DNA of 36,539 bases from Thermotogae bacterium (lineage in GTDB: Bacteria; Thermotogota; Thermotogae; Petrotogales; Petrotogaceae). The notes below the pieces were generated by a model. That model was not told where the DNA came from, ran no database searches, and was given only the letters and a program-made list of their open reading frames with translations. A program made the translations under genes and the position numbers. Location of the stretch: NCBI GenBank assembly GCA_022704305.1, contig JAKJGQ010000008.1, forward strand, positions 1 through 36,539, written 5' to 3'. This document shows, piece by piece, positions 4,466-34,451 of this stretch (within the stretch, counting starts at the first letter, position 1; each line of letters starts with the position of its first letter).

Positions 4466-5632
4466 ATGAATATAGGTATGTTTTCAGATACATATTATCC
4501 GCAAAGAAATGGGGTTGCGACTTCATTAAAACTTTATAAAACAGAGCTTGAACGTATGGGCCATAATGTCTATCTTTTTATTCCTAAACTATCCAAAAAT
4601 GTAGTAAAGGAAGAAAAAACTTATCAGTTTCCGGCAATAAAATTTGCGTTTGAAAAAGATCAGAGATTAGCAATTCCTATAAAGCTTGATGTTCTCAGGG
4701 AAAATAAGTTAAGCCTGGACATAATTCATACCCATACTCCTTTTTCTGTAGGGATAAAGGGTATGTTTACAGCTCATGATTTCAATATTCCCTGTATAGG
4801 TACACATCATACTATGTATGAACATTACAGGCACTATCTTCCAGTATTTATACGTCCAAGTCTAAAACAGACTCAAAAGGGTATAAAATACTGGTGTGAA
4901 AAGTTGAATAAGGTCATTGCCCCTACGGAAAATATAAGAAAAGTGCTTGAAAGCTATGGCGTTCCAAATGAGCACATAGTTACTGTTCCAACCGGAATAG
5001 ATACTTATTCTTTTCGTGATGCTGTAAAATGGGATATACACAAAGAGCTAAGCATACCTTCAGAGAATAAAGTGTTGCTCTTTGTAGGAAGACTTGCAAA
5101 AGAAAAAAACATAGATTTTTTAATTAAAGTATTTCGAAAAGTTCATTCTGAGATTTATAAGTCAACCTTTGTCATAATCGGCGGAGGGAATGAAACTGAA
5201 ACTCTCAGACAGCTGGCTTTTGATTTAGGATTGGAAAAGGATGTAGTATTTACTGGTTCTATGTCAAGAGACAAGGTTATTGACGCATACAAAGGCTCTG
5301 ATGTCTTTGTTTTTGCATCTTATACCGAGACACAGGGTCTTGTGGTTCTTGAATCCATGGCTGCCGGTACGCCAGTAGTTGCGCTAGGAAAGATGGGGGT
5401 TTACGATATACTTTCAAACAATGAAAGCGGCGGTATCATGTTGGAAGATCTAAATGAAGATGATTTTACAGACAGTATTCTTAAGATACTAAAAGATGAA
5501 AAAATAAAGGATTCATTAGAGCAAAGATGTATTAAATTTGTGGATGATTATTACTCAATTGCTTCAACAGCAAAACAGATATCAATGGTTTATTCCGAAT
5601 TAATTGAGAAAAAAGAAAAAATAATCGGCTGA
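4466..5632 (+). CDS. 1,2-diacylglycerol 3-glucosyltransferase-like GT4 (copy 1)
   Basis: A 388-aa GT4 enzyme resembling Firmicutes LafA and mycoplasma monoglucosyldiacylglycerol synthases, which transfer glucose from UDP-glucose to diacylglycerol at the inner membrane face. Visible signs: N-terminal MFSDTYYPQRNGVATSLKL (acceptor loop), DIIHTHTPFSVG, GTHHTMYEHYRHY, VPTGIDTYSF, LLFVGRLAKEKNIDFL, and the E-x7-E motif in ETQGLVVLE with AAGTPVVALG. The start codon is 1 nt after the previous stop, with AGGA about 10 nt upstream. It is a tandem paralogue of the next gene; well over half of aligned residues look identical by eye. The exact donor and acceptor cannot be told from sequence. Confidence 0.92.
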   Translation: MNIGMFSDTYYPQRNGVATSLKLYKTELERMGHNVYLFIPKLSKNVVKEEKTYQFPAIKFAFEKDQRLAIPIKLDVLRENKLSLDIIHTHTPFSVGIKGMFTAHDFNIPCIGTHHTMYEHYRHYLPVFIRPSLKQTQKGIKYWCEKLNKVIAPTENIRKVLESYGVPNEHIVTVPTGIDTYSFRDAVKWDIHKELSIPSENKVLLFVGRLAKEKNIDFLIKVFRKVHSEIYKSTFVIIGGGNETETLRQLAFDLGLEKDVVFTGSMSRDKVIDAYKGSDVFVFASYTETQGLVVLESMAAGTPVVALGKMGVYDILSNNESGGIMLEDLNEDDFTDSILKILKDEKIKDSLEQRCIKFVDDYYSIASTAKQISMVYSELIEKKEKIIG

Positions 5633-5645
5633 TAAGGAGAAAATC

Positions 5646-6806
5646 ATGAATATAGCGATGTTTTCAGATACATATGTTCCTCAGAAAAACGGTGTCGCAA
5701 CTGCTCTTAAACTTTATAAGGAATCTATGCAGAAGATGGGACACAGAGTATATATGTTTGTTCCAAAACTTGGTATTGATTCAAAGAGACATGAAGATGA
5801 TGTTTTTGAGTTTCCAGCATTTAAATTTACCGCTGAAAAGGATCATCGCATAGCTCTTCCCATTTCTACTGACATATTTAAAGCCAACAAGCTAGATTTG
5901 GATGTTATTCATTCACACAGCCCTTTTTCAATGGGAATAGCAGCCGATCTTGTGGCCAAAGCTCTTGATTTGCCTTATGTTGGAACTCATCACACCATGT
6001 ATGAATACTATAGGCATTATGTTCCTTTTATATTCAGACCTTCTCTTAAGCAGGCTCAAAAGCTTATAAGAAATTGGTGTATCAAACTTGATAAGGTTAT
6101 TGCACCAACAAAGGATATAAAAGATGTTCTGGTGCAGTACGGCGTTCCCGCAGAACATATAGCGGTTATTCCGACCGGTATTGATACCTATTCTTTTGAC
6201 GGACCGGTTTTATGGGATATACGAAAAGAGTATTCAATTGGGGAGGAAGAAAAAATTCTCCTCTTTGTAGGAAGACTTGCCGAAGAAAAAAATATTGTCT
6301 TTCTTATAAAAATGTTCAGCAAGCTTATAAAACAAACTGATCAGAAGTATAAGTTCGTCATCGTTGGCGATGGACCGGAAAGGGAGAAACTCGAAGAACT
6401 TTCCATAGAGCTTGATCTTCATGATAGTATAATATTTACCGGTGGACAACCTAGGGAAAAGGTTATAGATGCTTATAAGCAATCTGATCTCTTTGTTTTT
6501 GCATCTTATACTGAAACACAGGGATTGGTTGTTCTGGAAGCTATGGCTGCTTGTACTCCGGTTGTAGCGCTTGGGAAAATGGGAGTAAGAGATCTTCTTT
6601 CGCAGAAAGATGCAGGCGGGATAATGATTGATGAACTCAATGAGAATGAGTTCATTGATAGTATTATTAAGCTTACGCAAAACAAAGAATTATATGAGAA
6701 GTATTCTGAAAAGGCCTGCAATTTTGTCAGAAACAATTACTCAATTAACGTTACTGGTCAGAAGATAGTAGAGGTTTACAGCCAGGCTATTAGAGGGATC
6801 AACTGA
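5646..6806 (+). CDS. 1,2-diacylglycerol 3-glucosyltransferase-like GT4 (copy 2)
   Basis: A 386-aa paralogue of the preceding gene with the same order of motifs: MFSDTYVPQKNGVATALKL, DVIHSHSPFSMG, GTHHTMYEYYRHY, IPTGIDTYSF, LLFVGRLAEEKN and E-x7-E in ETQGLVVLE. A notable difference is AACTPVV where copy 1 has AAGTPVV, next to the donor-phosphate site. The ribosome-binding site AAGGAGA lies 5 nt before the ATG. It probably makes a second member of the same glycolipid pathway, either a different sugar or a second addition; which is unknown. It shares a base with the start of the next gene, so the two are translationally coupled. Confidence 0.92.
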   Translation: MNIAMFSDTYVPQKNGVATALKLYKESMQKMGHRVYMFVPKLGIDSKRHEDDVFEFPAFKFTAEKDHRIALPISTDIFKANKLDLDVIHSHSPFSMGIAADLVAKALDLPYVGTHHTMYEYYRHYVPFIFRPSLKQAQKLIRNWCIKLDKVIAPTKDIKDVLVQYGVPAEHIAVIPTGIDTYSFDGPVLWDIRKEYSIGEEEKILLFVGRLAEEKNIVFLIKMFSKLIKQTDQKYKFVIVGDGPEREKLEELSIELDLHDSIIFTGGQPREKVIDAYKQSDLFVFASYTETQGLVVLEAMAACTPVVALGKMGVRDLLSQKDAGGIMIDELNENEFIDSIIKLTQNKELYEKYSEKACNFVRNNYSINVTGQKIVEVYSQAIRGIN

Positions 6807-7471: not shown

Positions 7472-7896
7472 TTCATACTCTTCCGTCATTATTCGGTCAT
7501 TTTCCGATATCAGGTTTCTCAGAGATACCTGTAGACAGTCTTGCGTATATAGGAGATGCTGTTATAGCTTTGAGATACAAGCTTTATATACTAAAGGACG
7601 GAAGGATCAAAACTAATACACTGAATAATGCTTCCAAAAAATATCTGACTGCACAGGCGCATTCATTTTTTATAGACAGACTTAATGAAAAAAAAATTTT
7701 TGATGAAATAGAAGAAGGCATTTTTAAGCGGGGCTATAATTCCAAAGGTGCCAAGAAAAGAGGAAATGATGAAGAGTACAGAAAATCTACAGGTCTTGAG
7801 GCCGTTATCGGATATCTGTACCTAAGCGATAATTACAAGAGACTTGAAGAAATTTTTGAGGTGATAGAGACATGTACATATATGGGAGAAATGTAA
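7468..7896 (+). CDS. mrnC: Mini-ribonuclease III
   Basis: A 142-aa RNase III catalytic domain without the double-stranded-RNA-binding domain. It is the enzyme that trims 23S rRNA ends in Bacillus. The first signature is LAYIGDAVIALR with catalytic Asp30 and the second is TGLEAVIGYLYL with Glu111. Length is typical of the family. Its ATG overlaps the previous stop (ATGA). The following gene is a TrmH-family methyltransferase, the same pairing as yazC-yacO in Bacillus, which supports the assignment. The 3' end overlaps that gene by 25 nt. Confidence 0.95.
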   Translation: MIHTLPSLFGHFPISGFSEIPVDSLAYIGDAVIALRYKLYILKDGRIKTNTLNNASKKYLTAQAHSFFIDRLNEKKIFDEIEEGIFKRGYNSKGAKKRGNDEEYRKSTGLEAVIGYLYLSDNYKRLEEIFEVIETCTYMGEM

Positions 7897-8594
7897 TAAA
7901 AGAAATAATTTCTGTAAGATATTCTGTTAAACAGGTATATGTAAGCAATTCCAAAAATACAGATAAAGAACTTGCCAGTATTGTCCAGAAAGCAAAGTCG
8001 AATGGTTATTCTGTTTCGTATGTATCAGATGATAATCTTAAAAATCTTGTAAATTATGATAAGCATCAGGGAGTTGTAATAGATATTGGAAAAGATTATG
8101 AATATTATGACACAGATTATCTTGAGAAAAAAAAGGAAAATGCTTTTATCGTGATGCTTGATCAGATACAGGATCCGCAAAACTTTGGGGCAATAATCAG
8201 ATCAGCTGTGGCATGTGGTGCCGATGCTATTGTTATTCCCAAAGATAACTCATGTGAAGTAACTGCTGCCGTTATAAAAGTTTCTGCAGGACAGATATTT
8301 AAAATTCCAATCATAAGAGTGGTTAATCTTTCCCGTACTGTAGAGTACCTGAAAGAAAAAAATTATTGGATATTTGCTGCTGATATGAACGGAAAAAACT
8401 ACTATGATAACGATTTTAAAGGAAATATATGTCTCATCTTAGGAAATGAAGGTTCTGGTATAAGAGAAAAACTAAGGGAAAAAGCTGATTTTATTGTATC
8501 TATTCCTATGTATAACAGTGTAGAATCGTTAAATGTATCGGTAAGTGCCGGGATAATAATGTTTGAGGCTGCAAAGCAGCGTCATGGCATATGA
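7872..8594 (+). CDS. rlmB: TrmH/RlmB-family RNA 2'-O-methyltransferase
   Basis: A 240-aa SPOUT methyltransferase. The N-terminal substrate-binding domain (MYIYGRNVIKEI onward) is followed by the three SPOUT motifs: NFGAIIRSA, LILGNEGSGI and IPMYNSVESLNVSVSAG, which form the knotted S-adenosylmethionine site. RlmB methylates G2251 of 23S rRNA (E. coli numbering), but related TrmH-type enzymes modify other sites, so the exact target is inferred. The start at 7872 lies inside mrnC and is preceded by GAGGTGAT at 7857-7864 with 7-nt spacing. The stop overlaps the mutL start (ATGA). Confidence 0.92.
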   Translation: MYIYGRNVIKEIISVRYSVKQVYVSNSKNTDKELASIVQKAKSNGYSVSYVSDDNLKNLVNYDKHQGVVIDIGKDYEYYDTDYLEKKKENAFIVMLDQIQDPQNFGAIIRSAVACGADAIVIPKDNSCEVTAAVIKVSAGQIFKIPIIRVVNLSRTVEYLKEKNYWIFAADMNGKNYYDNDFKGNICLILGNEGSGIREKLREKADFIVSIPMYNSVESLNVSVSAGIIMFEAAKQRHGI

Positions 8595-10393
8595 AAAGTA
8601 TAATACACGAGCTTGCACAGGAAGTAGTTGTTAAGATTGCTGCCGGCGAAGTGATAACTGGTACTTTTGCAGTTATGAAAGAACTGCTTGAAAATTCTGC
8701 AGATGCTCATGCCGATGACATAAAAGCTGAGATAAAGAACGGCGGCAAATCCCTTATAAAGCTTTCTGATAATGGCTGTGGGATGAGTCTTGAGGATATT
8801 TATAAGTCTGTAAAGCCTCACGCTACAAGCAAGATTTCTTCAGCGGAGGATCTCTATAAAATACAGACATTCGGTTTCAGAGGAGAGGCACTTTCTTCAA
8901 TATGTCAGGTTTCAAGAATGAGTATAAGTTCAAGACCTTTGCAAGAAGAAGTAGGCCATAAAGTAATCTTTATTGCTGGAAAAGTTGTTTCTGAATCTGT
9001 TGTAAATATGAATCCAGGAACTGTTATTGAGATTGAGGATATATTTTTTAATATTCCTGCCAGAAGGAAATTTTTAAAGAGTGATTCTGCAGAAGGGCGT
9101 ATGACTACAGAAATAATTGAAAAATTTATTCTTTCAAATATGGTTTCTCTTTCGTATGTGCGTGATGGAAAGAGTATTTACGAGGTAAGAAAAGATGATG
9201 ACCTTCAAACAAGACTTAGAAAGGTTTTTCCAGAGCTGAAAGCTGATGATATTATTTTTTTTGAAGAAGAAGGACAGTGGATCAAGGCTCATGGCTACAT
9301 TACCAAACCAATAATAGCAAGGCTTAATAGAACAGGACAGATTTTTTTTGTAAATAACAGATATGTGAGATCTGCCGAACTATTCTCTGTTTTTGAAGGA
9401 GCTTATTCGGGTATGCTTCAAACAGGAAAACATCCGTATTGTGCTGTTTTTATTGACGTACTTCCTCAGGAAGTAGATGTAAATGTTCATCCGCAGAAAC
9501 TAGAAGTAAAGTTTTCTGATCAGGCAAGTGTTAATAAGCTCCTGATAAAAGCGCTTAAAAGTGCGCTAGAGCATAAAGTGAAGTTTACCCTGAATCTTAT
9601 AAAAGAAGATGTTCAGCCTTATATTCAGATTCAGAAACAGGAAAATGATTCTTCAGCAAATGTTTTAAAAACATCTGCCCCAGTAACCAATCATGAGCCA
9701 ATGCGGACACAAGAGAGGTTTTTTCAAAGGTCTTATGATAAGCTATCGGAAAGTAATACGTATGTAAGTAAAAATCAATCAGATATTATTCTTGCTCAGG
9801 CTTCAAAAACTCCAGAGTATGAACCAGAATATTCGCCCAAAATAATTGGATTCCTTTCAGAAAGATACATAATAAGCGAAGAAAATGGAAAAATGATTCT
9901 TACAGATTTTCATGCCGCACATGAAAGAATTTTATACGAAGAATTTAAAAAAGATTTTTTTGAGAAGGGAAGCATTTCCTGTCAGTATCTTATACTTCCC
10001 GAACAGATAGAACTTGACAAAACTTCCCTGGAGTATCTTGCAGAAAATGCAGCAAAAATAAAGAATTTTGGTATTGACTTGGATATACATGAAGATGGAA
10101 AGCTTTTAGTAAAAGCTCTTCCGCATTCGTTGGAAAAAAGAGATATTCAGGGACTTTTGGGAGAAGTGGTGGCTATTTTGCGCCTTCATGGAATTGAACC
10201 TATAGAGAAGATATTTGAAGATATTCTGGCGACAATGGCTTGTAGGGCTGCGGTAAAGACGAACGATGATTTCGTCGGGGCACAGACTCTTTTGGAGCAG
10301 GTACATAAAAGAGGGCTTAAGACATGTCCTCATGGAAGACCAATTAGCATGGAACTGGAAGTAAAAAAGATCGATTCCTATTTTGGAAGATAA
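8591..10393 (+). CDS. mutL: DNA mismatch repair protein MutL
   Basis: A 600-aa MutL. The N-terminal GHKL ATPase shows IAAGEV, KELLENSADA (general base Glu31, Mg-binding Asn35), DNGCGM, FGFRGEAL and IPARRKFLK. A variable linker covers about residues 335-415. The C-terminal endonuclease motif DFHAAHERILYE is at 439-450 (canonical DQHA-x2-E-x4-E, with Q replaced by F), followed by ACRAAVK and CPHGRP at 579-584. It should therefore nick DNA, like MutL of species without MutH. In the first motif TGTF replaces the usual RPA after GEV. The start overlaps the rlmB stop and has no good Shine-Dalgarno, so it is probably translated by coupling. No mutS is in the window. Last gene of the operon. Confidence 0.97.
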   Translation: MKSIIHELAQEVVVKIAAGEVITGTFAVMKELLENSADAHADDIKAEIKNGGKSLIKLSDNGCGMSLEDIYKSVKPHATSKISSAEDLYKIQTFGFRGEALSSICQVSRMSISSRPLQEEVGHKVIFIAGKVVSESVVNMNPGTVIEIEDIFFNIPARRKFLKSDSAEGRMTTEIIEKFILSNMVSLSYVRDGKSIYEVRKDDDLQTRLRKVFPELKADDIIFFEEEGQWIKAHGYITKPIIARLNRTGQIFFVNNRYVRSAELFSVFEGAYSGMLQTGKHPYCAVFIDVLPQEVDVNVHPQKLEVKFSDQASVNKLLIKALKSALEHKVKFTLNLIKEDVQPYIQIQKQENDSSANVLKTSAPVTNHEPMRTQERFFQRSYDKLSESNTYVSKNQSDIILAQASKTPEYEPEYSPKIIGFLSERYIISEENGKMILTDFHAAHERILYEEFKKDFFEKGSISCQYLILPEQIELDKTSLEYLAENAAKIKNFGIDLDIHEDGKLLVKALPHSLEKRDIQGLLGEVVAILRLHGIEPIEKIFEDILATMACRAAVKTNDDFVGAQTLLEQVHKRGLKTCPHGRPISMELEVKKIDSYFGR

Positions 10394-10400
10394 CTTTCTT

Positions 10401-10438
10401 AAAATAACGCGCACCTCTTATGAGGTACGCGTTATTTT
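10401..10438. terminator. Bidirectional terminator between mutL and the beta-glycosidase gene
   Basis: An 11-bp perfect stem pairs AAAATAACGCG (10401-10411) with CGCGTTATTTT (10428-10438). After one mismatch it continues with ACCTC/GAGGT around the loop TTAT. The AAAA and TTTT ends supply a U-tract on both strands. It also contains the stop codon of the converging minus-strand gene. Confidence 0.92.
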
Positions 10439-11703
10439 ATAAACTTAAGAGTACTTTCTTCAATTTTATTATCAGAAGCTATTTTTGAATATATCTTGGC
10501 AGAGTTTCTCATATAGAGCACATTGTTGTTATAATCTGTTTGCAGCAGACCAAACCGCATGCTGTTTCCCTCAACCCATTCAAAATTATCCATAAGTGAC
10601 CAATACATATACCCCATCACGTTTGCCCCTTCTTTCATGGCCTGGTTTATCGAATAAAGGGCACTGACAATATATGCTGTCCTGTACCTGTCCTCTGAAT
10701 CAGCTATTCCGTTTTCAGTTATCATGAGCGGCTTATGATAACGCTTACTGAATCTGTCAACTACTTCATAAAGACCCTGGGGATAGTAGTGCCAGCCGAT
10801 ATCTGTTTTCATTCCTTCTTTAGTTTTAGTTTCAATATTTTTCTTATTAATATGTATAAATCTTTTAGTATAGTAATTTATGCCTATAAAATCAAAATCA
10901 GAAGAAAAGGAGTACTTTTCGTTTTTACCAAAAGGTTTTGCAAACTTGCCATCAAGTATAGAATCAATGAAAGCATGGTCAAAGTATCTCTGGATAGTCC
11001 TACTAGCTATAATATCAATAGGGGAAAAAGAAAGATATGGGCGGTAAACAGCAGTATGCTTGGCAACAGATATTTTGGCATTAGGATTTATTTTTTTAAT
11101 TATTTTGTAAGCTTCATCATAAGCCACAAGAAGATTTCTGACAACTGCCATCCCGGCATTCCAGTCTTTTTTCCCTGGGGGCCAAGAACCATCAATATAA
11201 GAGGTGAAAGCATATACTATAGGTTCGTTTATAACAGTATAATACTGTACCTTTTCTTTAAAAGCAGAAACCATTTTTTCAACAAATTTTAGGAAAAAAC
11301 TTATGTTTTCAGGTTTTTCAAATGCACCTTTGTTATAAAACCACAAGGGGTTCACAAAATGGTGCAAAGTTACCACAGGTTCTATTCTTTTTGAAAGAAG
11401 TATATCAACTATTTTACAGTACCTCTGTAAATGATTCTCGCAAAAAGAATTCTCGTCAGGCTGTATTTTTGCCCATTCAACTGAAAATCTGTAGGCGTTG
11501 AGGTTCAGATCGGAAAGAAAAGTTATATCTCTTTCATAATACTTCTCCGACTGACAGCCCGGATCAGAAGAAGAGTTATCTTTTATCTTTCCTTTTTTTT
11601 CCCATTCATACCAATCACTGTTGTAATTAGCCCCTTCTATTTGATGAGATGCTGTTGCAGCTCCCCATAAAAACCCTTCTGGGAAGTGTACTGTAGCGGA
11701 CAT
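10432..11703 (-). CDS. Glycoside hydrolase family 1 beta-glycosidase
   Basis: A 423-aa GH1 enzyme, probably cytoplasmic as no signal peptide is seen. It hydrolyses beta-linked glucosides or galactosides by a retaining mechanism. The N-terminal FPEGFLWGAATASHQIEG is the family signature. The acid/base is Glu160 in TVINEP and the nucleophile is Glu330 in MITENG. YWSLMDNFEW is the aglycone-side motif near the C-terminus. Length is near the 420-450 usual for the family; substrate preference cannot be read. AGGGGGGAT precedes the ATG by 4-5 nt. A TATAAT on the minus strand at 11748-11753 could be its own promoter, but no good -35 accompanies it. Downstream of the DUF1576 pair on the same strand. 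Confidence 0.94.
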   Translation of the reverse strand: MSATVHFPEGFLWGAATASHQIEGANYNSDWYEWEKKGKIKDNSSSDPGCQSEKYYERDITFLSDLNLNAYRFSVEWAKIQPDENSFCENHLQRYCKIVDILLSKRIEPVVTLHHFVNPLWFYNKGAFEKPENISFFLKFVEKMVSAFKEKVQYYTVINEPIVYAFTSYIDGSWPPGKKDWNAGMAVVRNLLVAYDEAYKIIKKINPNAKISVAKHTAVYRPYLSFSPIDIIASRTIQRYFDHAFIDSILDGKFAKPFGKNEKYSFSSDFDFIGINYYTKRFIHINKKNIETKTKEGMKTDIGWHYYPQGLYEVVDRFSKRYHKPLMITENGIADSEDRYRTAYIVSALYSINQAMKEGANVMGYMYWSLMDNFEWVEGNSMRFGLLQTDYNNNVLYMRNSAKIYSKIASDNKIEESTLKFIK

Positions 11704-11747
11704 TCCAATCCCCCCTAATTCTCTATGAAACTCCCCAATATAATTTT

Positions 11748-11753
11748 ATTATA
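11748..11753 (-). promoter_or_regulatory. Possible -10 element for the beta-glycosidase gene
   Basis: TATAAT on the minus strand, 45 nt before the start codon, in an AT-rich spacer. At 17 bp the -35 position reads TATTAA, a poor match, and there is no extended -10. Tentative. Confidence 0.35.
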
Positions 11754-11799
11754 CTACATTTATCAAAAATTTAATAATCAAAAGTATAAGAACAATTTT

Positions 11800-12141
11800 T
11801 TATTTTTTCCGTACAAGTTTTATGACAAGTTCATTGTTTTCTGCTTTTACCTCAGCAGAGTCTATCATCAAACCTATAAGGTTAAGTTCATTTTCTTCAC
11901 TGTTGGTTCCTGCAAGATTCCAGTAGTAGTCGCTTATTTCTTCGTGCCTTCCTGGTGTAAGAAGTTTTTTTAATTCTGCAATATTTTCGGAGTTAATATG
12001 TGAGCATGCAGATCTTATAGTAATTTCGAATCCTAAAATATTCTCTTTTAATTCAAGGGTAAGAGCATGGGAGCATCTTAAAAACATGTAATTGAGGAGT
12101 TCGTTGGCTATTCGCAGTACTTTAATACGCTCAGTGTTCAT
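11800..12141 (-). CDS. Small protein of unknown function paired with the DUF1576 gene
   Basis: A 113-aa soluble protein that I do not recognise. It begins NTERIKVLRIANELLNYMF and ends with an alternating helix-strand pattern (ELNLIGLMIDSAEVKAENN, then LVIKLVRKK). That is vaguely like the small GHKL or anti-sigma-type folds, but no ATP-binding N or G box can be seen, so no function is proposed. The open frame reaches 12159, but AAAGGAGGGGA at 12145-12155 places the start at ATG 12141. It overlaps the end of the DUF1576 gene by 11 nt, so the two are translationally coupled and probably work together. Confidence 0.72.
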   Translation of the reverse strand: MNTERIKVLRIANELLNYMFLRCSHALTLELKENILGFEITIRSACSHINSENIAELKKLLTPGRHEEISDYYWNLAGTNSEENELNLIGLMIDSAEVKAENNELVIKLVRKK

Positions 12142-13393
12142 CTTTTCCCCTCCTTTCAAAAGCTTGTATTATAGGAAGCAAAAAGGCAGCAACTAATCCG
12201 CCGGAAAAACCGTTATTATATAAGTTCATTCCTCCATGTAGGTATCCGAGATTTGTAACCAGTGATGAATGAAGAAAACCTGCTATAATTCCCCAAAAGA
12301 TGCCGAATTCGCCTGCGATAGGGGCCAGAGTAGTTCCGAACAAAGCTGCGAGTACCATATTGGGATCATGAATATCATACATATTGGTGATACTTCCAAG
12401 AAAGACGCCTAAAAATATGGGAATTATATTGCGCAGATGTTTTCCAAAAGCACCAAAACCTACTATTGTAAATATTCCTCCTATAGTCGGACCATTTAGG
12501 GCGGCACCCGTAAGGAGAACGTATGAAGTAGCAGCTAATCCAACAGATCCCATATTTATAAGTGTTTTTTCCATTCCTTCAAGTAGAACAAAGTCAGTTA
12601 CAAGTCTGCCGGAATAAGTTGATATTTTTTTTACTCCGGAGAAAGAATTTTTATTGTATCTGTAACCCATGTATATCATTACTAAAAACAACACATAAAG
12701 ATAGATTCCTAATAGAACATTATTTCCGCTGGACCAGAGTATTCTTGGTTCGAAAGAATATCCGTATGCACGTAGAATAGATACTAAAAAGGTTGCTATT
12801 ATGCCAGCGGTGAATCCGACGTTGTATAGATTATATCCACGATGGAAGGAAAGAAAGTACGAAGAAAGCGGAGGCAACAAAAAACCTAGAAAGGTAGATG
12901 TGATGAAAGCAAGAATAAGATTTAAAAAGGATGGAAGTGCATCACTAAAAATTATCTGGGTTATTATCGGAGAAAGACTTGTACCAAAAAATGCAATATA
13001 AACATATTTTCTGAATGATTCTTTTCTAATTTTTGAATATATAAAAACTCCTATTATTACAAACCATACATTGAAAATATTTTTTCCAAATAATGAAAAG
13101 CCGCTTAAGGTCCATAAACTGGCAATAGAAACTCCTGTTATCTCGACTTTAGCTTTTTTAAGAATCATTATTGCAGCCATGGTGACTATTCCACAGTTCA
13201 AAAAAGCAGCACCAATACCTGACAGTTTTATGTAATCTACTATAAGGAAATCAGGTTCTGTAATTATTCTGAAGATATCATCAAAAAATGTCTCATAGTT
13301 GGAAAATAAGAGACCGAAGATAATAAATGAAAAGGCGTATGTTTTGAGGATGAAAAATCTTTTTTCATTGTCGATGTAAGTTTCGTCTGCCAT
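12131..13393 (-). CDS. DUF1576-family polytopic membrane protein
   Basis: A 420-aa integral membrane protein with roughly ten or more hydrophobic segments, matching what I know as DUF1576. Two similar blocks occur about 200 residues apart: HRGYNLYNVGFTAGIIA and HGGMNLYNNGFSGGLVA, each followed by a hydrophobic helix ending near a proline or isoleucine. This internal duplication suggests a transporter-like fold of two repeated halves. The substrate is unknown. The frame runs up to 13453, but TTTGGAGGTG at 13398-13407 selects the ATG at 13393, giving MADETYIDNEKRF. The small partner gene overlaps its 3' end. A weak -10 (TACAAT, 13427-13432) lies upstream; it may instead be read from the tRNA promoter. 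Confidence 0.85.
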   Translation of the reverse strand: MADETYIDNEKRFFILKTYAFSFIIFGLLFSNYETFFDDIFRIITEPDFLIVDYIKLSGIGAAFLNCGIVTMAAIMILKKAKVEITGVSIASLWTLSGFSLFGKNIFNVWFVIIGVFIYSKIRKESFRKYVYIAFFGTSLSPIITQIIFSDALPSFLNLILAFITSTFLGFLLPPLSSYFLSFHRGYNLYNVGFTAGIIATFLVSILRAYGYSFEPRILWSSGNNVLLGIYLYVLFLVMIYMGYRYNKNSFSGVKKISTYSGRLVTDFVLLEGMEKTLINMGSVGLAATSYVLLTGAALNGPTIGGIFTIVGFGAFGKHLRNIIPIFLGVFLGSITNMYDIHDPNMVLAALFGTTLAPIAGEFGIFWGIIAGFLHSSLVTNLGYLHGGMNLYNNGFSGGLVAAFLLPIIQAFERRGKDEH

Positions 13394-21470: not shown

Positions 21471-22442
21471 ATGAAGATCGTTTATGATCCCAGGCATGTT
21501 TTTTACAGCCCCAAATCCGAGTTTGACAGGACCAGGATGGTAAATAATCCTGAAACACCCCAAAGAATAGAAGAAATAATAAAGGTTTTAAAATTTAAAT
21601 ATGGAAATTCATTTGTAAAACCTAAGGATTTTCCAAAGTCTTACATTTATCTTGTACATGATTCAAATTATATAAGTTGGCTTAAGAACAGATGTGATTC
21701 TCTCGAAGATATGCAGGAGTACTTTCCAAAGGTTTTTGGTTATGATAGGGTTTTTGATAACGGAACTCCTTTGATGAAAAATTCTTTCGAAATGGCTTGG
21801 ATGGGTGTAAAATGTGCTCTTACAGGAGCTTATGAGCTTCTTAATGGTGGAGAGGATATTGTTTATGTCGGGACAAGACCTCCTGGCCATCATGCCGGCA
21901 TAGATATGGGTGGCGGTTACTGCTATATGAACAATTCAGCTGTTGCTGCAAAGTTTCTTCAGATGAAATCTGGAGGTACTGTTGCGGTGCTTGACCTTGA
22001 TTTTCATCATGGAAACGGAACTCAGGAAATCTTTTATGAAGACAGTTCTGTCCTTTATATCAGTCTCCATGCGGATCCTGCACAGCATTTTCCTTTCATA
22101 AGTGGATACGAATGGGAGATAGGTGGGGGTGAAGGGAAAGGTTATAATATAAATTTTCCCCTTGCTGCCGGAACTGATGGAAGAACTTATCTTAGAACAC
22201 TTGAAAAAGCAGCGCAGGAGATACAGGATTATGATCCTTCGTATCTTATCGTATCGCTAGGAACAGATACCCATAAAGATGATCCCCTTGGTAATTTTAT
22301 GTTGGGAGATTCCGACTTTTTTGAAATTGGAAAGATACTTTCAGAACTTGATATATTTAAACTTGTTATTCAGGAAGGCGGCTATAATCCTATTGCAAAC
22401 GCATCTGCCGTTGATTCTTTTCTGGCAGGACTATTGATATAG
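21471..22442 (+). CDS. Histone-deacetylase-fold amidohydrolase, acetylpolyamine amidohydrolase-like
   Basis: A 323-aa zinc amidohydrolase of the histone deacetylase superfamily. Visible active-site parts: RPPGHHAG (His140, His141), GGYCYMNNSAVAA, zinc ligands Asp177 and His179 in DLDFHHGNGTQ, a third aspartate in SLGTDTHKDDP, and the catalytic tyrosine in QEGGYN. The stretch SLHADPAQHFPF, then EIGGGEGKGYN, is the form seen in acetylpolyamine amidohydrolases (AphA) and fits deacetylation of small polyamines better than protein substrates. Thermophiles make unusual polyamines, so a polyamine role is plausible but inferred. The start is 3 nt after the rpiB stop with GGAGGAG overlapping it. Confidence 0.88.
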   Translation: MKIVYDPRHVFYSPKSEFDRTRMVNNPETPQRIEEIIKVLKFKYGNSFVKPKDFPKSYIYLVHDSNYISWLKNRCDSLEDMQEYFPKVFGYDRVFDNGTPLMKNSFEMAWMGVKCALTGAYELLNGGEDIVYVGTRPPGHHAGIDMGGGYCYMNNSAVAAKFLQMKSGGTVAVLDLDFHHGNGTQEIFYEDSSVLYISLHADPAQHFPFISGYEWEIGGGEGKGYNINFPLAAGTDGRTYLRTLEKAAQEIQDYDPSYLIVSLGTDTHKDDPLGNFMLGDSDFFEIGKILSELDIFKLVIQEGGYNPIANASAVDSFLAGLLI

Positions 22443-28493: not shown

Positions 28494-29195
28494 ATGCAGG
28501 AGATAAAATGTAGTATTCTGGATAAAGGTTTTGTGACTCTTATAGATATGATGGGTGACGATTTTTCAGCCGTTAAAGCAGCAAGGGTTTCATATGCAAA
28601 AGAGCAGTCTTCTGATATTGAAAGAGACAGAGCACTGATAGAGTATCTTATGAAAAATAAGCACGAATCACCTTTTGAACACATAACGCTTACTTTTCAT
28701 GTGAAATGTCCTATTTTCGTTGCCAGGCAGTGGCTGAGACACCGAATAGGAAATTCTTACAATGAGATCAGCAGAAGGTATACTACCAAATACAGTGAGG
28801 AGTTTTACCTGCCTGACCACATAAGAGTACAAGACGAGGAAAACCGTCAAAGTTCATATATATGTGAGGATGATAACAAAAAAGAACAGGCTTTGTTGCT
28901 TATTGAAGAAAGTTATAAGAATGCATATGAAACATATCAGAAGCTTTTAAAATTGGGTATTGCAAGAGAAATGGCCAGAATAGTCCTTCCTGTGGGAGAG
29001 TATACTCAGTTTTATTGGACATCGAATATAAGATCGATTATGCATTTTTTAAATCTGAGGGCAGATGGGCATGCACAGTATGAAATCCAGCTGTATGCAA
29101 AGGCTATAGCGGAAATTTTTAATAAGGTATGTCCTCTTTCTTATACCGCCTTCTTAAAGTATTCCTATACAGGTAATATTCTCAAGGAGGTTTAG
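28494..29195 (+). CDS. thyX: FAD-dependent thymidylate synthase ThyX
   Basis: A 233-aa flavin-dependent thymidylate synthase that makes dTMP from dUMP with methylene-tetrahydrofolate and NADPH. It aligns along its length with T. maritima ThyX (TM0449) as I remember it: [52 protein letters not shown]. The signature RHR-x7-S appears as R82-H83-R84 with eight residues (IGNSYNEI) before Ser93, one more than the T. maritima spacing, while Glu91 and Arg95 are kept. GAGGTAGG lies 5 nt before the ATG. No thyA is in the window. It directly precedes the DRTGG module by 6 nt. Confidence 0.95.
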
Positions 29196-29201
29196 CCGAT
29201 C

Positions 29202-29585
29202 TTGAAAATACTTCAGATATTGAAACTACTTAATGCGGAAGCTGTCTTTATGCCTCCGGGTTCTGATGAGTATGAGATAGAGTATTCCGGTGCTGCAGAT
29301 CTTATGAGTGATTTTCTTGCTTTTTCAAGAGAACATATGCTTCTTATAACCGGACTTACGAGTCCACAAACCATAACTACCGCTGCAGTGATAGGTGCAA
29401 ACGGGGTTATTTTTGTGCGTGGAAAGGAAATACCCCCTGAAGTTTTAAAAACCGCTCAAGAGCTTGATATTCCTATTCTCAAGACAAGTATTTCAATGTA
29501 TATTGCATGCGCTATTTTGTATAAAAACGGCATTAAAGATGCTATGGGAACAGACAGGTTTTTGGATAATGGGGATACTTTATAA
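29202..29585 (+). CDS. DRTGG-domain protein 1
   Basis: A 127-aa single DRTGG domain: an N-terminal sensing helix (ILKLLNAEAVFMPP), YSGAADLMSDFLAF, LLITGLTSPQTITTAAVIGA, VIFVRGKEIPPEV, and AQELDIPILKTSISMYIACA. DRTGG domains sit next to CBS and other ligand-sensing domains in PtaA-like and hydrogenase-linked proteins; their ligand is not settled. The start TTG at 29202 has AAGGAGG 11 nt upstream. The stop overlaps the start of the CBS-ATPase gene (TAATG). It is related to the DRTGG protein at 30540, so the module has two paralogues flanking one gene. Confidence 0.85.
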   Translation: MKILQILKLLNAEAVFMPPGSDEYEIEYSGAADLMSDFLAFSREHMLLITGLTSPQTITTAAVIGANGVIFVRGKEIPPEVLKTAQELDIPILKTSISMYIACAILYKNGIKDAMGTDRFLDNGDTL

Positions 29586-30526
29586 TGCAAAATGATGTTG
29601 AAAAATTAGTTGAAATGCTTTCAAAGGTATTTTCGAACACAAAAATTAAAGAAATAATGACAAGGCCTCCTATAGTTGTTACTCAGGAGACCAAGATTAA
29701 GTATGTTAAGGATATAATGCGTATAAAAGGGATCTCAGGAATGCCTGTTATCGCACCTGGGTTTAAGCTGGTAGGTATAATAAGTATAGAAGATATAATA
29801 AGAGTATTTGAAAACGGAAGTTTTGATGACAGGGTAAATAAATGGATGACTCCGGATCCTGTGTATCTTAAGGAAGATGAAATGCTTCTTCACTTTCTTC
29901 AGGTTAATGAAGATCTGAAATACGGAAGATACCCGGTGGTAAACAATGACCACAAAGTAGTAGGAGTAGTTACAAAGCTTGATATTTTAAGCTGGATGTT
30001 TAAAAAGCTCGGGTATATATATGTTCATGATGAAAGAAGAGAAAAAGCTTTGAATAAGAAGTATATGTCAACCATAACCGGAGAGCTCCTTGATAAAGAA
30101 GGAGTCGATTTTTCATATAAAATAGACTACGATTCGGTCGAAATGATAGGAGCCGCCGCGACACGCCTTAAAAAATTTCTTAAGGAGAAAAAGATACAGG
30201 AAGATATAATAAGGAAAATATCAATTGCAACCTATGAGGCTGAAGCCAACGTTGTTATTCACAGCAGTTCGACGGGTAACGTATACTGTTGGATAAAGCA
30301 GGATCATATAAAAGTGTTAATAGAGGATTTCGGAAAAGGGATCGAAGATCTTGAACAGGCTATGAAAGAAGGATTTACCACAGCTCCGGATAACATAAAG
30401 GAAAAAGGGTTTGGTGCTGGAATGGGTCTTCCTAATATGAAAAGATTTTCTGACAGGATGACAATAGTATCAAGTATAGGTAAGGGAGTAAAAGTTGAAA
30501 TTTTATACTATATAAAAGAAAAATAA
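29585..30526 (+). CDS. CBS-pair protein fused to an anti-sigma-type ATPase
   Basis: A 313-aa fusion. Residues about 18-135 form two CBS repeats (IMTRPPIVVTQETKIKYVKD, ISGMPVIAPGFKLVGIISI; WMTPDPVYLKEDEMLLHFL, RYPVVNNDHKVVGVVT), which bind adenine nucleotides. Residues about 150-313 form a GHKL ATPase like RsbW: N box IATYEAEANVVIH, G1 IEDFGKGIEDLE, G2 GFGAGMGLPNMKRFSDR. It reads as a kinase or anti-sigma protein whose activity is set by nucleotide level. It overlaps the DRTGG gene before it by one base. Similar genes occur with [FeFe]-hydrogenase clusters in related bacteria, from memory. Confidence 0.88.
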   Translation: MQNDVEKLVEMLSKVFSNTKIKEIMTRPPIVVTQETKIKYVKDIMRIKGISGMPVIAPGFKLVGIISIEDIIRVFENGSFDDRVNKWMTPDPVYLKEDEMLLHFLQVNEDLKYGRYPVVNNDHKVVGVVTKLDILSWMFKKLGYIYVHDERREKALNKKYMSTITGELLDKEGVDFSYKIDYDSVEMIGAAATRLKKFLKEKKIQEDIIRKISIATYEAEANVVIHSSSTGNVYCWIKQDHIKVLIEDFGKGIEDLEQAMKEGFTTAPDNIKEKGFGAGMGLPNMKRFSDRMTIVSSIGKGVKVEILYYIKEK

Positions 30527-30539
30527 TCGGAGGGGGAAA

Positions 30540-30869
30540 ATGAAGCTTGAAAAAATAATAAAAGATCTTAATCTTAGGATTATTTCAGCTGGAAGCGACG
30601 ATATCGAAATTATAAACGGTAATATAGGGGATCTTCTCAGTGAGGTCATGCGTACCGCAAAACCAGACTCTGTTTGGATTACATATCAGACTCATCAAAA
30701 TATTATTGCTGTAGCAGAAGTTGTCGGAATAAAAGCAATAATTATTCCTTACGGGCTGCATTACTCTGAAGATACCGCTGAAAAAGCCTGTGAGCATGGA
30801 ATATATCTTTTGGAATCGGACGAATCAGCTTTTGCTGTGAGTGGAAAGTTGTACGGATTAATAAGTTGA
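30540..30869 (+). CDS. DRTGG-domain protein 2
   Basis: A 109-aa DRTGG-type domain, shorter than the first copy: KIIKDLNLRIISAGSDD, INGNIGDLLSEVMRTAK, VWITYQTHQNIIAVAEVVGI, AIIIPYGLHYSEDTAEKACE, GIYLLESDESAFAVSGKL. The order of strands and helices matches copy 1, though sequence identity is low. TCGGAGGGGG precedes the ATG by 4 nt. It lies between the CBS-ATPase and PHP genes and probably forms a signalling unit with them. Confidence 0.8.
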   Translation: MKLEKIIKDLNLRIISAGSDDIEIINGNIGDLLSEVMRTAKPDSVWITYQTHQNIIAVAEVVGIKAIIIPYGLHYSEDTAEKACEHGIYLLESDESAFAVSGKLYGLIS

Positions 30870-30870
30870 T

Positions 30871-31596
30871 ATGGCCCTTTTCAATGCATCTTTTCATAAT
30901 CACTCTGTTCTTTCACCATGCGCAGATATAACCATGACACCGGAAGTGTATGCCCAAAAGCTCACGTATGCTGGGATAGACTGGATAGCACTTACCGATC
31001 ATAACTCATGCAGGAATGTACGGATCTTTGAACGACTGCTTTCTGAGCACGGAATACAGGTGCTTCCAGGAATAGAGGTTCAGACTAAGGAAGAAATCCA
31101 CATTCTTTTTTATTTCAGCAGTTTTAAGGAGCTTGAGGAATTTTCAATGTATATTGAAGAAAGAGTCATTATCAAAGATTACGATCCTGAGAAGCTCGGA
31201 TATCAGATAGAACTGAACGAAGAAGGTGAGTTCAATAATATTCTTTCATATCCTTATCTTGGTAGCGCATGCGATCTTTCACTTGAAGATGCAGTAAGAG
31301 CAGCAAGAAAATACGACTCGCTATGTGTGCCGGCACACATATTCAGATCTTTTGGTCTTATAACCCAGTTGGGTATACCGCCTGAAATTGAATTTGACGG
31401 GGTGGAGGTAAAAAATCCAAGGGAATATGAGACAGCCAAAAAACTTGGTTTTTCAAGATTCCTGTTTGGAATGGATGCACATACTCCTGACGAACTCGAA
31501 GGAATAGCGTGCACAGTAGAAACTGAAAAAAGAGATTTTGAGCATTTAAAGACAGCGTTATATAAAGGTAAGGTGTTTCCGTTATGGCAACACTGA
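30871..31596 (+). CDS. PHP-domain metal-dependent phosphoesterase
   Basis: A 241-aa PHP-fold protein. Metal-binding residues seen are H-x-H in SFHNHSVLSPCADITMTPE, WIALTDHNS, LPGIEVQTKEEIHILFYF, CVPAHIF and MDAHTP near the end. Members hydrolyse phosphoesters such as histidinol phosphate or small RNAs; this subtype, standing alone in a DRTGG/ATPase cluster, has no assigned substrate. The start is 1 nt after the previous stop with no good Shine-Dalgarno, so it is probably coupled. It overlaps the next gene by 13 nt. Confidence 0.88.
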   Translation: MALFNASFHNHSVLSPCADITMTPEVYAQKLTYAGIDWIALTDHNSCRNVRIFERLLSEHGIQVLPGIEVQTKEEIHILFYFSSFKELEEFSMYIEERVIIKDYDPEKLGYQIELNEEGEFNNILSYPYLGSACDLSLEDAVRAARKYDSLCVPAHIFRSFGLITQLGIPPEIEFDGVEVKNPREYETAKKLGFSRFLFGMDAHTPDELEGIACTVETEKRDFEHLKTALYKGKVFPLWQH

Positions 31597-32126
31597 AGAC
31601 TATTGCCGATCATATTATGGATATTTGTGAGAATGCTGTCCGTTCAAAGAGCAAACTTTGTGAACTTTACATTGATGAATATGAAACATCCTTTTTTTTC
31701 AGGATATCAGACAAAGGTATAGGAATGGATGAGCAGGAAGTAAAAAAGGCGCTAGACCCGTTCTATACAACCAAAACCGAGCGCAGGAAGAAGTTCGGTA
31801 TGGGTCTTCCTTTTTTGAAGTTTTCCAGTGAACTTACAGGCGGCAATTTTAAAATAACTTCAGAAAAAGGCTATGGTACTGTCGTAGAAGTTCTTTTTAA
31901 AAAAGACAGCATTGACTGCCAGCCGGTAGGAGACATTGCTCAGGCGATTTTTTCTGTAGTATATCTTGACCACGATACAGATTGGTATATTAAGAGAACC
32001 AAAAATAGTGAAGCTTATGAGATAAACTCTTCAGATATGAAGAAAGAGTATGGAGAAACTTTTTTTTCGCCTTCATTTATGAAAAACATCAAAGATCTAA
32101 TCATTTCATTAGAAAATGAGTTCTAA
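31584..32126 (+). CDS. Histidine-kinase-type ATPase domain protein
   Basis: A 180-aa GHKL ATPase of histidine-kinase type standing alone: N box IADHIMDICENAVRS, G1 ISDKGIGMDEQE, F box DPFYTTKTERRKKFG, G2 MGLPFLKFSSELTGG. It lacks the histidine phospho-acceptor helices and any sensor domain, and carries an extra C-terminal region of about 65 residues with no known motif. It may modify or sense a partner rather than act in a two-component pathway. It is the last gene of the DRTGG/CBS/PHP module. Confidence 0.85.
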   Translation: MATLKTIADHIMDICENAVRSKSKLCELYIDEYETSFFFRISDKGIGMDEQEVKKALDPFYTTKTERRKKFGMGLPFLKFSSELTGGNFKITSEKGYGTVVEVLFKKDSIDCQPVGDIAQAIFSVVYLDHDTDWYIKRTKNSEAYEINSSDMKKEYGETFFSPSFMKNIKDLIISLENEF

Positions 32127-32186: not shown

Positions 32187-34451
32187 ATGACAAAAAAGAT
32201 ATTTCTTGTAGCAGTGCTCTGCCTTTCTGTGTTTACTGCTTTTTCGATAACTAAACTCCAGAAAATTGAGTACAGCGAAAATATTTCGTATGCAGCATCG
32301 GAAATTAGCAGAATTTTTGAAAACTATGAGATAAAAGAAGGTAATATGGTTGGTGAGATAGATGTAAAACTGGCAATAAAGCAGATAATGGATCTGGGAT
32401 ACTTTACATCCATGGACTTTGAACTCAATAACGATACGGGAGTATTGTTATTTAAAATTAAATCCAATCCCTTTGTAAAGGAATACAAGATAAAGTACAT
32501 CGGAGATAAACTGATTGAAGAAGCTGTTCTTGCCTCACTTATCGAAGTTAAGAAAAATCTGCCCCTGAATCTGAAAGAGTATAAAAACTCTCTTATAAAT
32601 ATTCAGACGGCATATCAGTCAAAAGGCTATCAGTTTATAAATCTCAGTTCGAACATTTTAATTGATGGAGAAAGCTTTACCATGCAAGCAACCTCCGTAA
32701 ATAATAAAATGAGTCAAGATGGTGAACTGGTATTCATTGTAGAAGAGCTTCCCCTTTGGGATATAGTGCTTGAAGGCGAGACATGTGCTTTAGATAAGTC
32801 TGCTTTAAAGAAAAAACTTGGATTTTCTTTCAGGAAAGATTATGAAGAAGCTTTTTTTCTTTTCAGACCACAGGCAAAAGAAACATATCCTACTATTGAA
32901 AAACTTCAGGCGTTATATTCGGCGCTTGTTCAGACCGGATATTTTGGAGAAGAAACAAGCGTAGACTTTGCAGCGACAAAGAATGAAAAAAGCGGAACAA
33001 ATGCCATAAATATAGTAATCGGAGGAAAACTCAGGCAGATAGTGGACCAAGATATACAGGTAAAAAATATAAAATTTTCCGGAAATCAATCTCTTGAATT
33101 TTTTAAACTACAGGATACAGTAAAAAAGAACATGAATATTGAAGATTCTGTATCAAACATTGAGCTTCTGAGAAGCCTTGATGCCATTAGAGAGTTGTAT
33201 AAAAGCGAAGGATATCTTTTTGTAGAGGCAGATGTTTCTTATGAGCAGAGTAATTCAGAACTTACATACATAATAACTGAAAAGCGTTACGGAGATATCA
33301 ATATCACAAAAGAAGCCACAAGTCAGACCAAAGACTACCTTCTAAATTCTTTTGTTAAGATAGGCAAGGGAGATAAGATAACCCAGAAATCTCTTCAGGA
33401 TACATATTATGGTTTTATGGGGACAGGTTTTTTTAAGAATGTCGATATAGTACCTGTATCAATGGATGAAACAACTGTTTCTTTCAAAATATCTCCATAT
33501 GAAAACGATAAGCCAAGTAAGATGATATTTAATTTTAACTGGACAAGTCCTGAGAATAAGCCTTTCTATTTCGGATTCAGCGGAGGTACAGAAATAAAAT
33601 GGGCTAATCTTTTCGGAGCCGGGCACACAGTCTCGGTAAAAGGTCAAGTTACACCTCTTTCAGAGTATTATGAAGGTTCTTTTGGCTATAATGTTATGAA
33701 GCTTAATCAGACCAAGCTTGATCTTGGTATTGAGATGGGAGCTTTATTCACACCCAAAGGAAAGTATGAAGATACTATAAACGCAACTGTTTCTGTTCAG
33801 ACGGGAATTAAGTTGTCTCCTAGTTATAATATTTCAGATTTTTCATATATTACCAATTATCTATCCTACGACCATTATATGATGCAAAATTCCCAGGTGA
33901 CCATTGACAGAGGCTCAGGTTCTTTAGGATACAGCTATATAAGACTTGACAGCCCAAGCAGGCCGTACAATGGAGAGTATCTCTCAATTGCTGGTTTTGG
34001 CGGATTTGACCTTGTTGATTTTTCGAAAAGCTACTATGGAGGCGGAATAGAAGGGAAACTCTTTAAAAGCCTTTATAAGTTTACTTTTGGAGCAAGGGTA
34101 AAAGTCGGACATGTTATAGATAACGGAGGCTTATACAGTTATTCGGTAGGTGGAATGAGTACTGTCAGAGGATATGATTTTGGTGAGCGAAAAGGAGACA
34201 GCACCCTATTATTTAACACCGAACTGGCTTTTGAACTCATAAAACAGCCTCTGCCTATAGATTTATTTGTTTTTTATGATATAGGAAATGCGGATAACAA
34301 CTACTCCAAACTAATTAACAACACCATCTCTTCAGCTGGTATAGGCGCTAAAATAACAGTACCCATGCTAGGACAGGTTAGATTTGAATATCTGTATAAA
34401 ATAAATGATAATAAATGGGTAGGTTCATTTGGATTCGGACCGGTTTTTTGA
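32187..34451 (+). CDS. bamA: Outer membrane assembly protein BamA (Omp85)
   Basis: A 754-aa Omp85 protein that folds and inserts beta-barrel proteins into the outer membrane. It has a signal peptide (KKIFLVAVLCLSVFTAFS), several POTRA domains up to about residue 420, then a 16-strand barrel. The barrel holds the loop motif VRGY (660-663) followed by DFGERKGDS, and ends in the outer-membrane signature FGFGPVF with a terminal phenylalanine. AACGGGAGGAAAG precedes the ATG. Its presence shows that the organism has an outer membrane. It follows the ATPase gene by 60 nt, the largest gap in the block, in which I see no clear promoter. Confidence 0.94.
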   Translation: MTKKIFLVAVLCLSVFTAFSITKLQKIEYSENISYAASEISRIFENYEIKEGNMVGEIDVKLAIKQIMDLGYFTSMDFELNNDTGVLLFKIKSNPFVKEYKIKYIGDKLIEEAVLASLIEVKKNLPLNLKEYKNSLINIQTAYQSKGYQFINLSSNILIDGESFTMQATSVNNKMSQDGELVFIVEELPLWDIVLEGETCALDKSALKKKLGFSFRKDYEEAFFLFRPQAKETYPTIEKLQALYSALVQTGYFGEETSVDFAATKNEKSGTNAINIVIGGKLRQIVDQDIQVKNIKFSGNQSLEFFKLQDTVKKNMNIEDSVSNIELLRSLDAIRELYKSEGYLFVEADVSYEQSNSELTYIITEKRYGDINITKEATSQTKDYLLNSFVKIGKGDKITQKSLQDTYYGFMGTGFFKNVDIVPVSMDETTVSFKISPYENDKPSKMIFNFNWTSPENKPFYFGFSGGTEIKWANLFGAGHTVSVKGQVTPLSEYYEGSFGYNVMKLNQTKLDLGIEMGALFTPKGKYEDTINATVSVQTGIKLSPSYNISDFSYITNYLSYDHYMMQNSQVTIDRGSGSLGYSYIRLDSPSRPYNGEYLSIAGFGGFDLVDFSKSYYGGGIEGKLFKSLYKFTFGARVKVGHVIDNGGLYSYSVGGMSTVRGYDFGERKGDSTLLFNTELAFELIKQPLPIDLFVFYDIGNADNNYSKLINNTISSAGIGAKITVPMLGQVRFEYLYKINDNKWVGSFGFGPVF

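Follow-up and report, generated by a model that had tools for sequence, protein, structure and literature searches.

A DRTGG, CBS-kinase and PHP gene module between thyX and bamA in a Petrotogaceae genome: a possible adenylate-sensing form of the module found around group D sensory hydrogenases

The group D (M2e) enzymes, putative sensory [FeFe]-hydrogenases (HydS) whose hallmark is a Cx2Cx4Cx16C motif, were noted by their describers to be flanked by a histidine kinase-like ATPase, and the relay of the signal was left open (PMC8163306). For the group C enzymes (that of T. maritima, R. albus HydS and HfsB), H2 sensing through a Ser/Thr kinase has been proposed (as cited in PMC5707799). Here we analyzed a locus that resembles the neighbourhoods of group D enzymes but has no HydS. 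It occupies positions 29202-32126 on the + strand of a 36,539-nucleotide (nt) stretch of DNA (hereafter the window) from a Petrotogaceae genome (contig JAKJGQ010000008.1 of assembly GCA_022704305.1). Its five open reading frames (ORFs) encode a DRTGG-domain protein (DRT1), a CBS pair fused to an RsbW/SpoIIAB-like GHKL kinase domain (CBS-RsbW), a second DRTGG paralogue (DRT2), a predicted PHP-family phosphoesterase (PHP) and a stand-alone GHKL ATPase (HATP). Its closest counterpart is the neighbourhood of group D HydS genes (TamHydS of Thermoanaerobacter mathranii being one such enzyme): modules with HydS outside Thermotogota hold the same DRT1, RsbW-like, DRT2, PHP and HATP genes, whereas here the CBS pair is fused to RsbW and no hydrogenase lies nearby. 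In our reading, to which we give a probability of about 0.5, the locus is one form of a signalling module that is widespread among anaerobes and whose input can be exchanged between H2 and adenylates; the form seen here has the CBS sensor.

Other described systems share parts with this locus. The RsbW/SpoIIAB kinases have the same GHKL domain, with the N-box E and N and a glycine-rich lid, and are likewise stand-alone modules with no transmembrane sensor. The locus differs from them in its fused CBS pair, in having DRTGG and PHP proteins in the place of STAS and PP2C, and in having no sigma factor in the module. The CBS-DRTGG region of family II pyrophosphatases combines a CBS pair with a DRTGG domain, and the DRT1 model fits the structures 3l31 and 3l2b. 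This regulatory part responds to AMP, ADP, ATP and diadenosine polyphosphates (PMC10742508). In the locus, by contrast, the two domains lie on separate polypeptides, there is no pyrophosphatase, and the DRTGG proteins also occur in modules that lack CBS domains. Operons for Bfu/HydABC enzymes (for instance, hydABCSL of A. mobile) contain hisK, a kinase-named gene whose product lies outside the enzyme (PMC9304861). Judged by position only, hisK is perhaps of the HATP family, whereas in the window the HATP gene is part of the thyX-bamA region, where NuoE and NuoF are lacking.

The five ORFs are tightly packed, with junctions of -13 to +13 nt. DRT1 (29202..29585; 127 amino acids, aa) begins at a TTG with a Shine-Dalgarno-like AGGAGG upstream, and matches Pfam DRTGG at 27.9 bits (cut-off 25.2). 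CBS-RsbW (29585..30526; 313 aa) has two Pfam CBS matches followed by HATPase_c_2/HATPase_c, the former at 40.6 bits. DRT2 (30540..30869; 109 aa) scores only 12.7 bits, below the Pfam DRTGG cut-off. Despite this, sequence comparison by BLASTP identifies it as a true DRTGG paralogue, with E values of 9e-8 against DRT1 of the window and 2e-21 against a neighbour gene annotated as "DRTGG domain" in Parabacteroides. PHP (30871..31596; 241 aa) matches Pfam PHP at 30.8 bits (cut-off 26.4) and is predicted to be a metal-dependent phosphoesterase. HATP (31584..32126; 180 aa) matches Pfam HATPase_c at 48 bits and carries a C-terminal domain of ~70 aa; no phospho-acceptor histidine domain was found in it. 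The flanking genes, which we place outside the signalling set, are on the same strand: thyX upstream (28494..29195; TIGR02170, 214.7 bits) and a BamA/Omp85-like gene downstream (32187..34451; POTRA/ShlB Pfam matches). An earlier note on this DNA had described five tightly packed genes that lie between thyX and bamA and have no hydrogenase gene nearby. The ORFs bear this out, and a profile scan of all window ORFs of at least 70 aa returned no hydrogenase, NuoE or NuoF. The five-gene arrangement is far beyond chance, because the same order was seen repeatedly across Thermotogota.

The home genome (2.04 Mb, 80% complete) contains one CBS-RsbW gene, two DRTGG genes and one PHP gene of the module kind. 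It also has two [FeFe]-hydrogenase genes, both on contigs other than that of the module. Each has NuoE beside it, joined on C55 by a NuoF of 407 aa and on C221 by a 131 aa protein and a NuoF of 602 aa. Module genes were found beside neither operon, so a second module copy at a hydrogenase operon, which the earlier note had named as a possible outcome against it, was not seen; the present copy recurs in relatives. A search of this 80% complete genome with the HydS model found no group D HydS at a threshold of 1e-20, and within the locus CBS-RsbW runs directly into DRT2 with no HydS between them.

The hydrogenase-bearing form was seen in other phyla. A tblastn match in a Parabacteroides record showed the order DRTGG, RsbW (142 aa), [FeFe]-hydrogenase-like protein, DRTGG, PHP and HATPase. 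BLASTP comparisons among the window, Subdoligranulum and Parabacteroides were significant for all five proteins, in the same order. A genome-wide scan with a made-up consensus RsbW query gave 80 loci, picked by similarity and not at random, from Clostridia, Bacteroidota, Spirochaetota, Chloroflexota, Nitrospirota and one Coriobacteriales bin. The usual order in these loci, as annotated with profiles, is [NuoE] DRT1-RsbW-HydS-DRT2-PHP-HATP-[..]-NuoF-HydA, or two halves back to back, and the DRT1-RsbW-HydS(group D)-DRT2-PHP-HATP series occurs, whole or partial, in dozens of loci of Clostridia, Bacteroidota, Spirochaetota and Chloroflexota. The HydS proteins possess two N-terminal 4Fe-4S motifs, invariant H-cluster cysteines and the C-terminal Cx2Cx4Cx16C. 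Hydrogenase genes lie near the HydS form in 28 of 36 full-flank loci outside Spirochaetota, and HATP often lies within NuoE-NuoF-HydA operons in Clostridia and Spirochaetota. The hydrogenase linkage that the earlier note had put forward does exist outside Thermotogota, although mostly in another architecture, with a bare RsbW and a group D HydS, which the note had not described. Our literature search for DRTGG together with hydrogenase, also with the CBS domain, found nothing related; most subscription papers lay outside that search.

The two candidate inputs nearly alternate. Annotation was based on profiles built in this analysis with ad hoc score limits. Among the annotated loci, 70 have CBS without HydS, 76 have a bare RsbW with HydS, 2 have both and 8 have neither (Fisher p 4e-32, a value that describes this sample only because the loci were chosen by similarity and not at random). 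Strict replacement of one sensor by the other was dropped, because CBS and HydS coexist in two loci, L193 (genome G553) and L215 (G789), the only ones seen with two inputs. Some of the eight loci with neither input are contig ends or duplicates; those of Nitrospirota (L076, L116 and L122) are real, and have bare RsbW modules without CBS or HydS. A genome-wide search detected no group D HydS in Thermotogota: the best protein there reached 185 bits, against 300-683 bits for the 79 group D proteins from the sampled loci, and no protein scored between 185 and 300. The best-scoring HydS-like proteins of Thermotogota (521-553 aa) lie beside HydABC (L208-L211), which is consistent with the group C HydS described in T. 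maritima (PMC10055695). These group C-like genes, whose products have a PAS domain (PMC10055695), lie away from the module, and neither DRTGG nor PHP genes were observed next to them; the CBS module is likewise present in genomes of the T. maritima type. One HydS-like ORF (L219, ~5528-6671, in G093) has 301 aa where near relatives have ~526 aa, which may reflect a frameshift or sequence error.

The CBS fusion is not unique to Thermotogota, as we had considered: ~80 of 393 Spirochaetota genomes and ~11 of 399 Bacillota_A genomes have CBS-RsbW, and some Spirochaetota have a separate bare RsbW copy in addition. On a tree of 144 RsbW domains, the CBS or bare state requires 3 changes, compared with 47 for shuffled labels. 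The Thermotogota sequences, including those of the window and a Thermosipho locus, form one clade with a single spirochaete (Shimodaira-Hasegawa-like approximate likelihood-ratio test 100). The tree rests on few columns and leaves many forks unresolved; it allows a single origin of the fusion. The spirochaete sequence (L178, G455) lies beside a large NuoE/NuoF/HydA cluster, and a second copy in the same genome (L213) is of spirochaete type. Its grouping inside the Thermotogota clade suggests that the L178 gene arrived by lateral transfer.

To follow the gene set within the phylum, CBS-RsbW, DRTGG and PHP were each searched in the same 103 Thermotogota genomes, 82 of them good genomes. All three were found in 80 of the 103 genomes and none in 19, and the remaining four, with a mixed pattern, are incomplete genomes. 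Among the good genomes, the same 66 have all three and the other 16 have none. The absences are confined to three families (f1, genera g3, g4 and g8; f7; and f11, genera g34, g35 and g38), so the module was probably lost at least three times. The order thyX-DRT1-CBSRsbW-DRT2-PHP-HATP-bamA is common to families f1, f2 and f3, while the set is broken into two or more pieces in f4 and f8. Family f10 has three unlinked pieces (L203-L206, L221-L230), namely thyX-DRT1, CBS-RsbW alone, and DRT2-PHP-HATP-BamA, and all three were kept after the split, as were the thyX-DRT1 and HATP-BamA links. The retention of scattered pieces speaks for a joint function of the genes and for thyX-bamA as their ancestral place in Thermotogota. 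The joint presence and absence and this retention agree with the earlier proposal that the five genes make one unit. That Thermotogota modules sit beside bifurcating hydrogenases mostly did not hold: NuoF or HydA lies within 8 kb in 4 of 35 full-flank loci, and thyX is near in 21, so that a position between thyX and bamA with no hydrogenase neighbour is the usual one.

The f1 genera without the module have a NuoF homologue whose match mostly begins at residue ~107-119 of the query, in frames of ~485-515 aa (L220 in G012; also G003, G004, G008-G010, G014, G016 and G018). Two of these genomes have in-frame stops upstream of the NuoF frame. The N-terminal thioredoxin-like domain of NuoF seems to have been lost or split off in these genera, which may represent a single shared event. 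Elsewhere (L217, G026, 7486-12400) two tandem NuoE-NuoF pairs have no HydA beside them, possibly encoding a non-hydrogenase Bfu-type enzyme.

Conserved residues stand out in all five proteins. In the CBS pair, the motif SxxD67-70 of repeat 1 retains S/T67 in 71 of 71 homologues and D70 in 70 of 71, and the motif TxxD130-133 of repeat 2 retains T/S130 and D133 in 70 of 71 each. With both (S/T)xxD motifs, of the type that binds the ribose of nucleotides, thus kept, the earlier suggestion that the CBS pair senses nucleotides gains in plausibility. The kinase N-box E218xxxN222 has E218 and N222 in 71/71 homologues, and the GFGAGxG is also conserved. In DRT1, D33 and S36 (within D-L-M-S-D) are invariant in 135 of 135 sequences; DRT2 has invariant D31, S34 and T48 (131/131), with Ser34 equivalent to Ser36 of DRT1, so that the D and S are invariant over both paralogues (266/266). 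We regard this serine as a candidate phospho-acceptor. The AlphaFold2 model of DRT1 (predicted local distance difference test, pLDDT, 91) places Ser36 where helix 35-41 begins; in SpoIIAA, the serine that becomes phosphorylated likewise stands at a helix start. In the DRTGG region of E. coli Pta a proline lies opposite the serine, in an alignment of low probability. The top PDB fold matches of the DRT1 model were 2ioj (DRTGG) together with 3l31 and 3l2b; DRT1 thus belongs to the DRTGG fold (Pfam PF07085) directly, and DRT2 through its paralogy only.

PHP carries an LSPC motif and keeps H9, C17, D43, H44, E69, H77, H156, D202 and H204 in 124-125 of 125 homologues, and H11 in 123 of 125; from the family, we infer a metal-ligand role for these residues. 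HATP has conserved ATP-site residues and a C-terminal DxxPxGD motif (D111 and G116 in 108/108), and its model (pLDDT 89) matches MutL/histidine-kinase/PDK-type ATPases in fold. A cysteine of HATP that is invariant in Thermotogota (IDCQP) was set aside, as it is not kept elsewhere (37 of 108). PDB searches with single PHP or DRT1 sequences gave nothing useful; profile searches did better.

These features suggest how the module could work. The core would consist of the RsbW-like kinase, two DRTGG proteins, the PHP phosphoesterase and HATP as a second GHKL ATPase. The HydS form would receive its input from a group D [FeFe]-hydrogenase, a separate protein that probably responds to H2. The CBS form would instead take its input from the kinase-fused CBS pair, which probably senses adenine nucleotides, either as a measure of energy charge or in the form of a diadenosine alarmone. 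The CBS pair would set the activity of the RsbW domain, which would phosphorylate the invariant serine of DRT1, and the PHP enzyme would strip the phosphate from DRT1. DRT2 and HATP may form a second, output-side pair. The whole would be a partner switch akin to RsbW/SpoIIAB in which DRTGG replaces STAS and PHP replaces PP2C. Given that HydS is absent and CBS is fused to the kinase, the switch here probably reports the energy state, and a hydrogenase neighbour is unneeded. Its output is probably control of redox or fermentation, including NuoE/NuoF-type bifurcating complexes in trans.

That last point can be turned around: the module could be a dedicated regulator of hydrogenase or NuoE-NuoF (Bfu-type) enzymes acting in trans, its thyX-bamA place being mere relocation. 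We consider this possible although somewhat unlikely. In family f5, and there alone among Thermotogota, the module directly adjoins NuoE/NuoF (L059, L065, L066, L068 and L069), HATP lies inside NuoE-NuoF-HydA operons in Clostridia and Spirochaetota, and an [FeFe]-hydrogenase was found in 65 of the 66 good module-bearing genomes, with none detected in the remaining one. NuoF homologues occur in 102 of the 103 genomes; as nearly every genome has NuoF, we discarded this co-occurrence as uninformative. However, 13 of the 16 good genomes without the module possess hydrogenase genes, so the module is not required for them, and the association between module and hydrogenase is weak (Fisher p 0.02, not corrected for phylogeny). 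Genus g11, Mesotoga by inference, keeps the set, and Mesotoga is reported to lack a bifurcating hydrogenase (PMC7795431). Because position does not tie the module to hydrogenase in Thermotogota, and in view of these 13 genomes and of the module-bearing one in which no [FeFe]-hydrogenase was detected, control of redox or fermentation is our first choice, and hydrogenase or Bfu-type complexes are one possible target. That the genes are neighbours by operon inertia alone, with no joint function, is very improbable. The thyX-DRT1 and HATP-BamA links outlast the splitting of the set, which indicates that some adjacency is inherited rather than selected, but presence and absence are joint in 99 of 103 genomes, with only incomplete genomes as exceptions, all pieces are retained after dispersal, and the same set recurs in several phyla with other flanks.

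Two further alternatives concern the proteins themselves. The DRTGG and CBS domains might jointly bind AMP or diadenosine tetraphosphate (Ap4A), with PHP hydrolysing the nucleotide and not a phosphoprotein. This is unlikely in our view. In its favour, CBS-pyrophosphatases respond to AMP/ADP and Ap4A through a CBS pair plus DRTGG (PMC10742508), DRT1 shares the DRTGG fold of those enzymes, and PHP weakly resembles 3',5'-nucleoside bisphosphate phosphatase, TrlF families and PHP exo/endonucleases. Yet DRTGG and PHP are equally kept in modules without CBS, and every match to an NCBIfam PHP family is far under its cut-off. More doubtful still is a true anti-sigma factor, by which the RsbW-like domain would capture a sigma factor under nucleotide gating, with the STAS protein encoded elsewhere. 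SpoIIAB (anti-sigma F) is both the nearest curated family and the nearest solved structure, and the N-box E and N are conserved, but the score of 60.5 bits is far under the SpoIIAB cut-off of 135, and the RsbW family score (26 bits, cut-off 145) does not pass either. The recurrent partners are DRTGG, PHP and HATP, and no STAS, PP2C or sigma gene was found among the module genes and their direct neighbours, the rest of the genome not having been searched.

Several points weigh against the CBS-sensor reading itself. A CBS domain may bind a ligand other than an adenine nucleotide, or no ligand at all, and the invariant DRTGG serine could have a structural role or contact a ligand. In the searched literature, outside which most subscription papers lay, we found no measurements of binding, phosphorylation or interaction for the module proteins. 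HATP is sometimes missing beside the rest (in the T. maritima-type locus L199, for instance; a genome-wide HATP search was not made). The two dual-input loci also count here, as does the presence of both forms within Spirochaetota and within Clostridia, in loci that were not chosen at random.

Apart from the module, a gene of the histone-deacetylase family (AcuC-like) lies ~7 kb upstream on the same strand (21471-22442). For B. subtilis AcuC, control that depends on Ap4A is reported in a 2026 paper (PMC13039410).

If the CBS-sensor reading is right, it bears on more than one phylum. We tentatively propose a new bacterial phospho-switch in which GHKL kinases would phosphorylate the DRTGG serine, PHP would reset it, and sensors would be exchangeable: gut anaerobes would sense H2 by a group D hydrogenase, Thermotogota and many Spirochaetota would sense adenylates by a CBS pair, and the two sensors would seldom occur together. 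This switch would be the missing output pathway of the group D sensory hydrogenases, which are biochemically well studied and whose signalling is stated to be open (PMC8163306). With the module, five concrete partners can be named and a candidate phospho-site suggested, and organisms with the putative nucleotide sensor and no HydS offer a natural control. The pathway is testable in vitro, as its proteins are small and soluble and include thermostable ones from Thermotoga. In Clostridia and Bacteroidota of the gut, the HydS form adjoins bifurcating hydrogenases and is therefore relevant to the way in which gut anaerobes adjust their H2 output.

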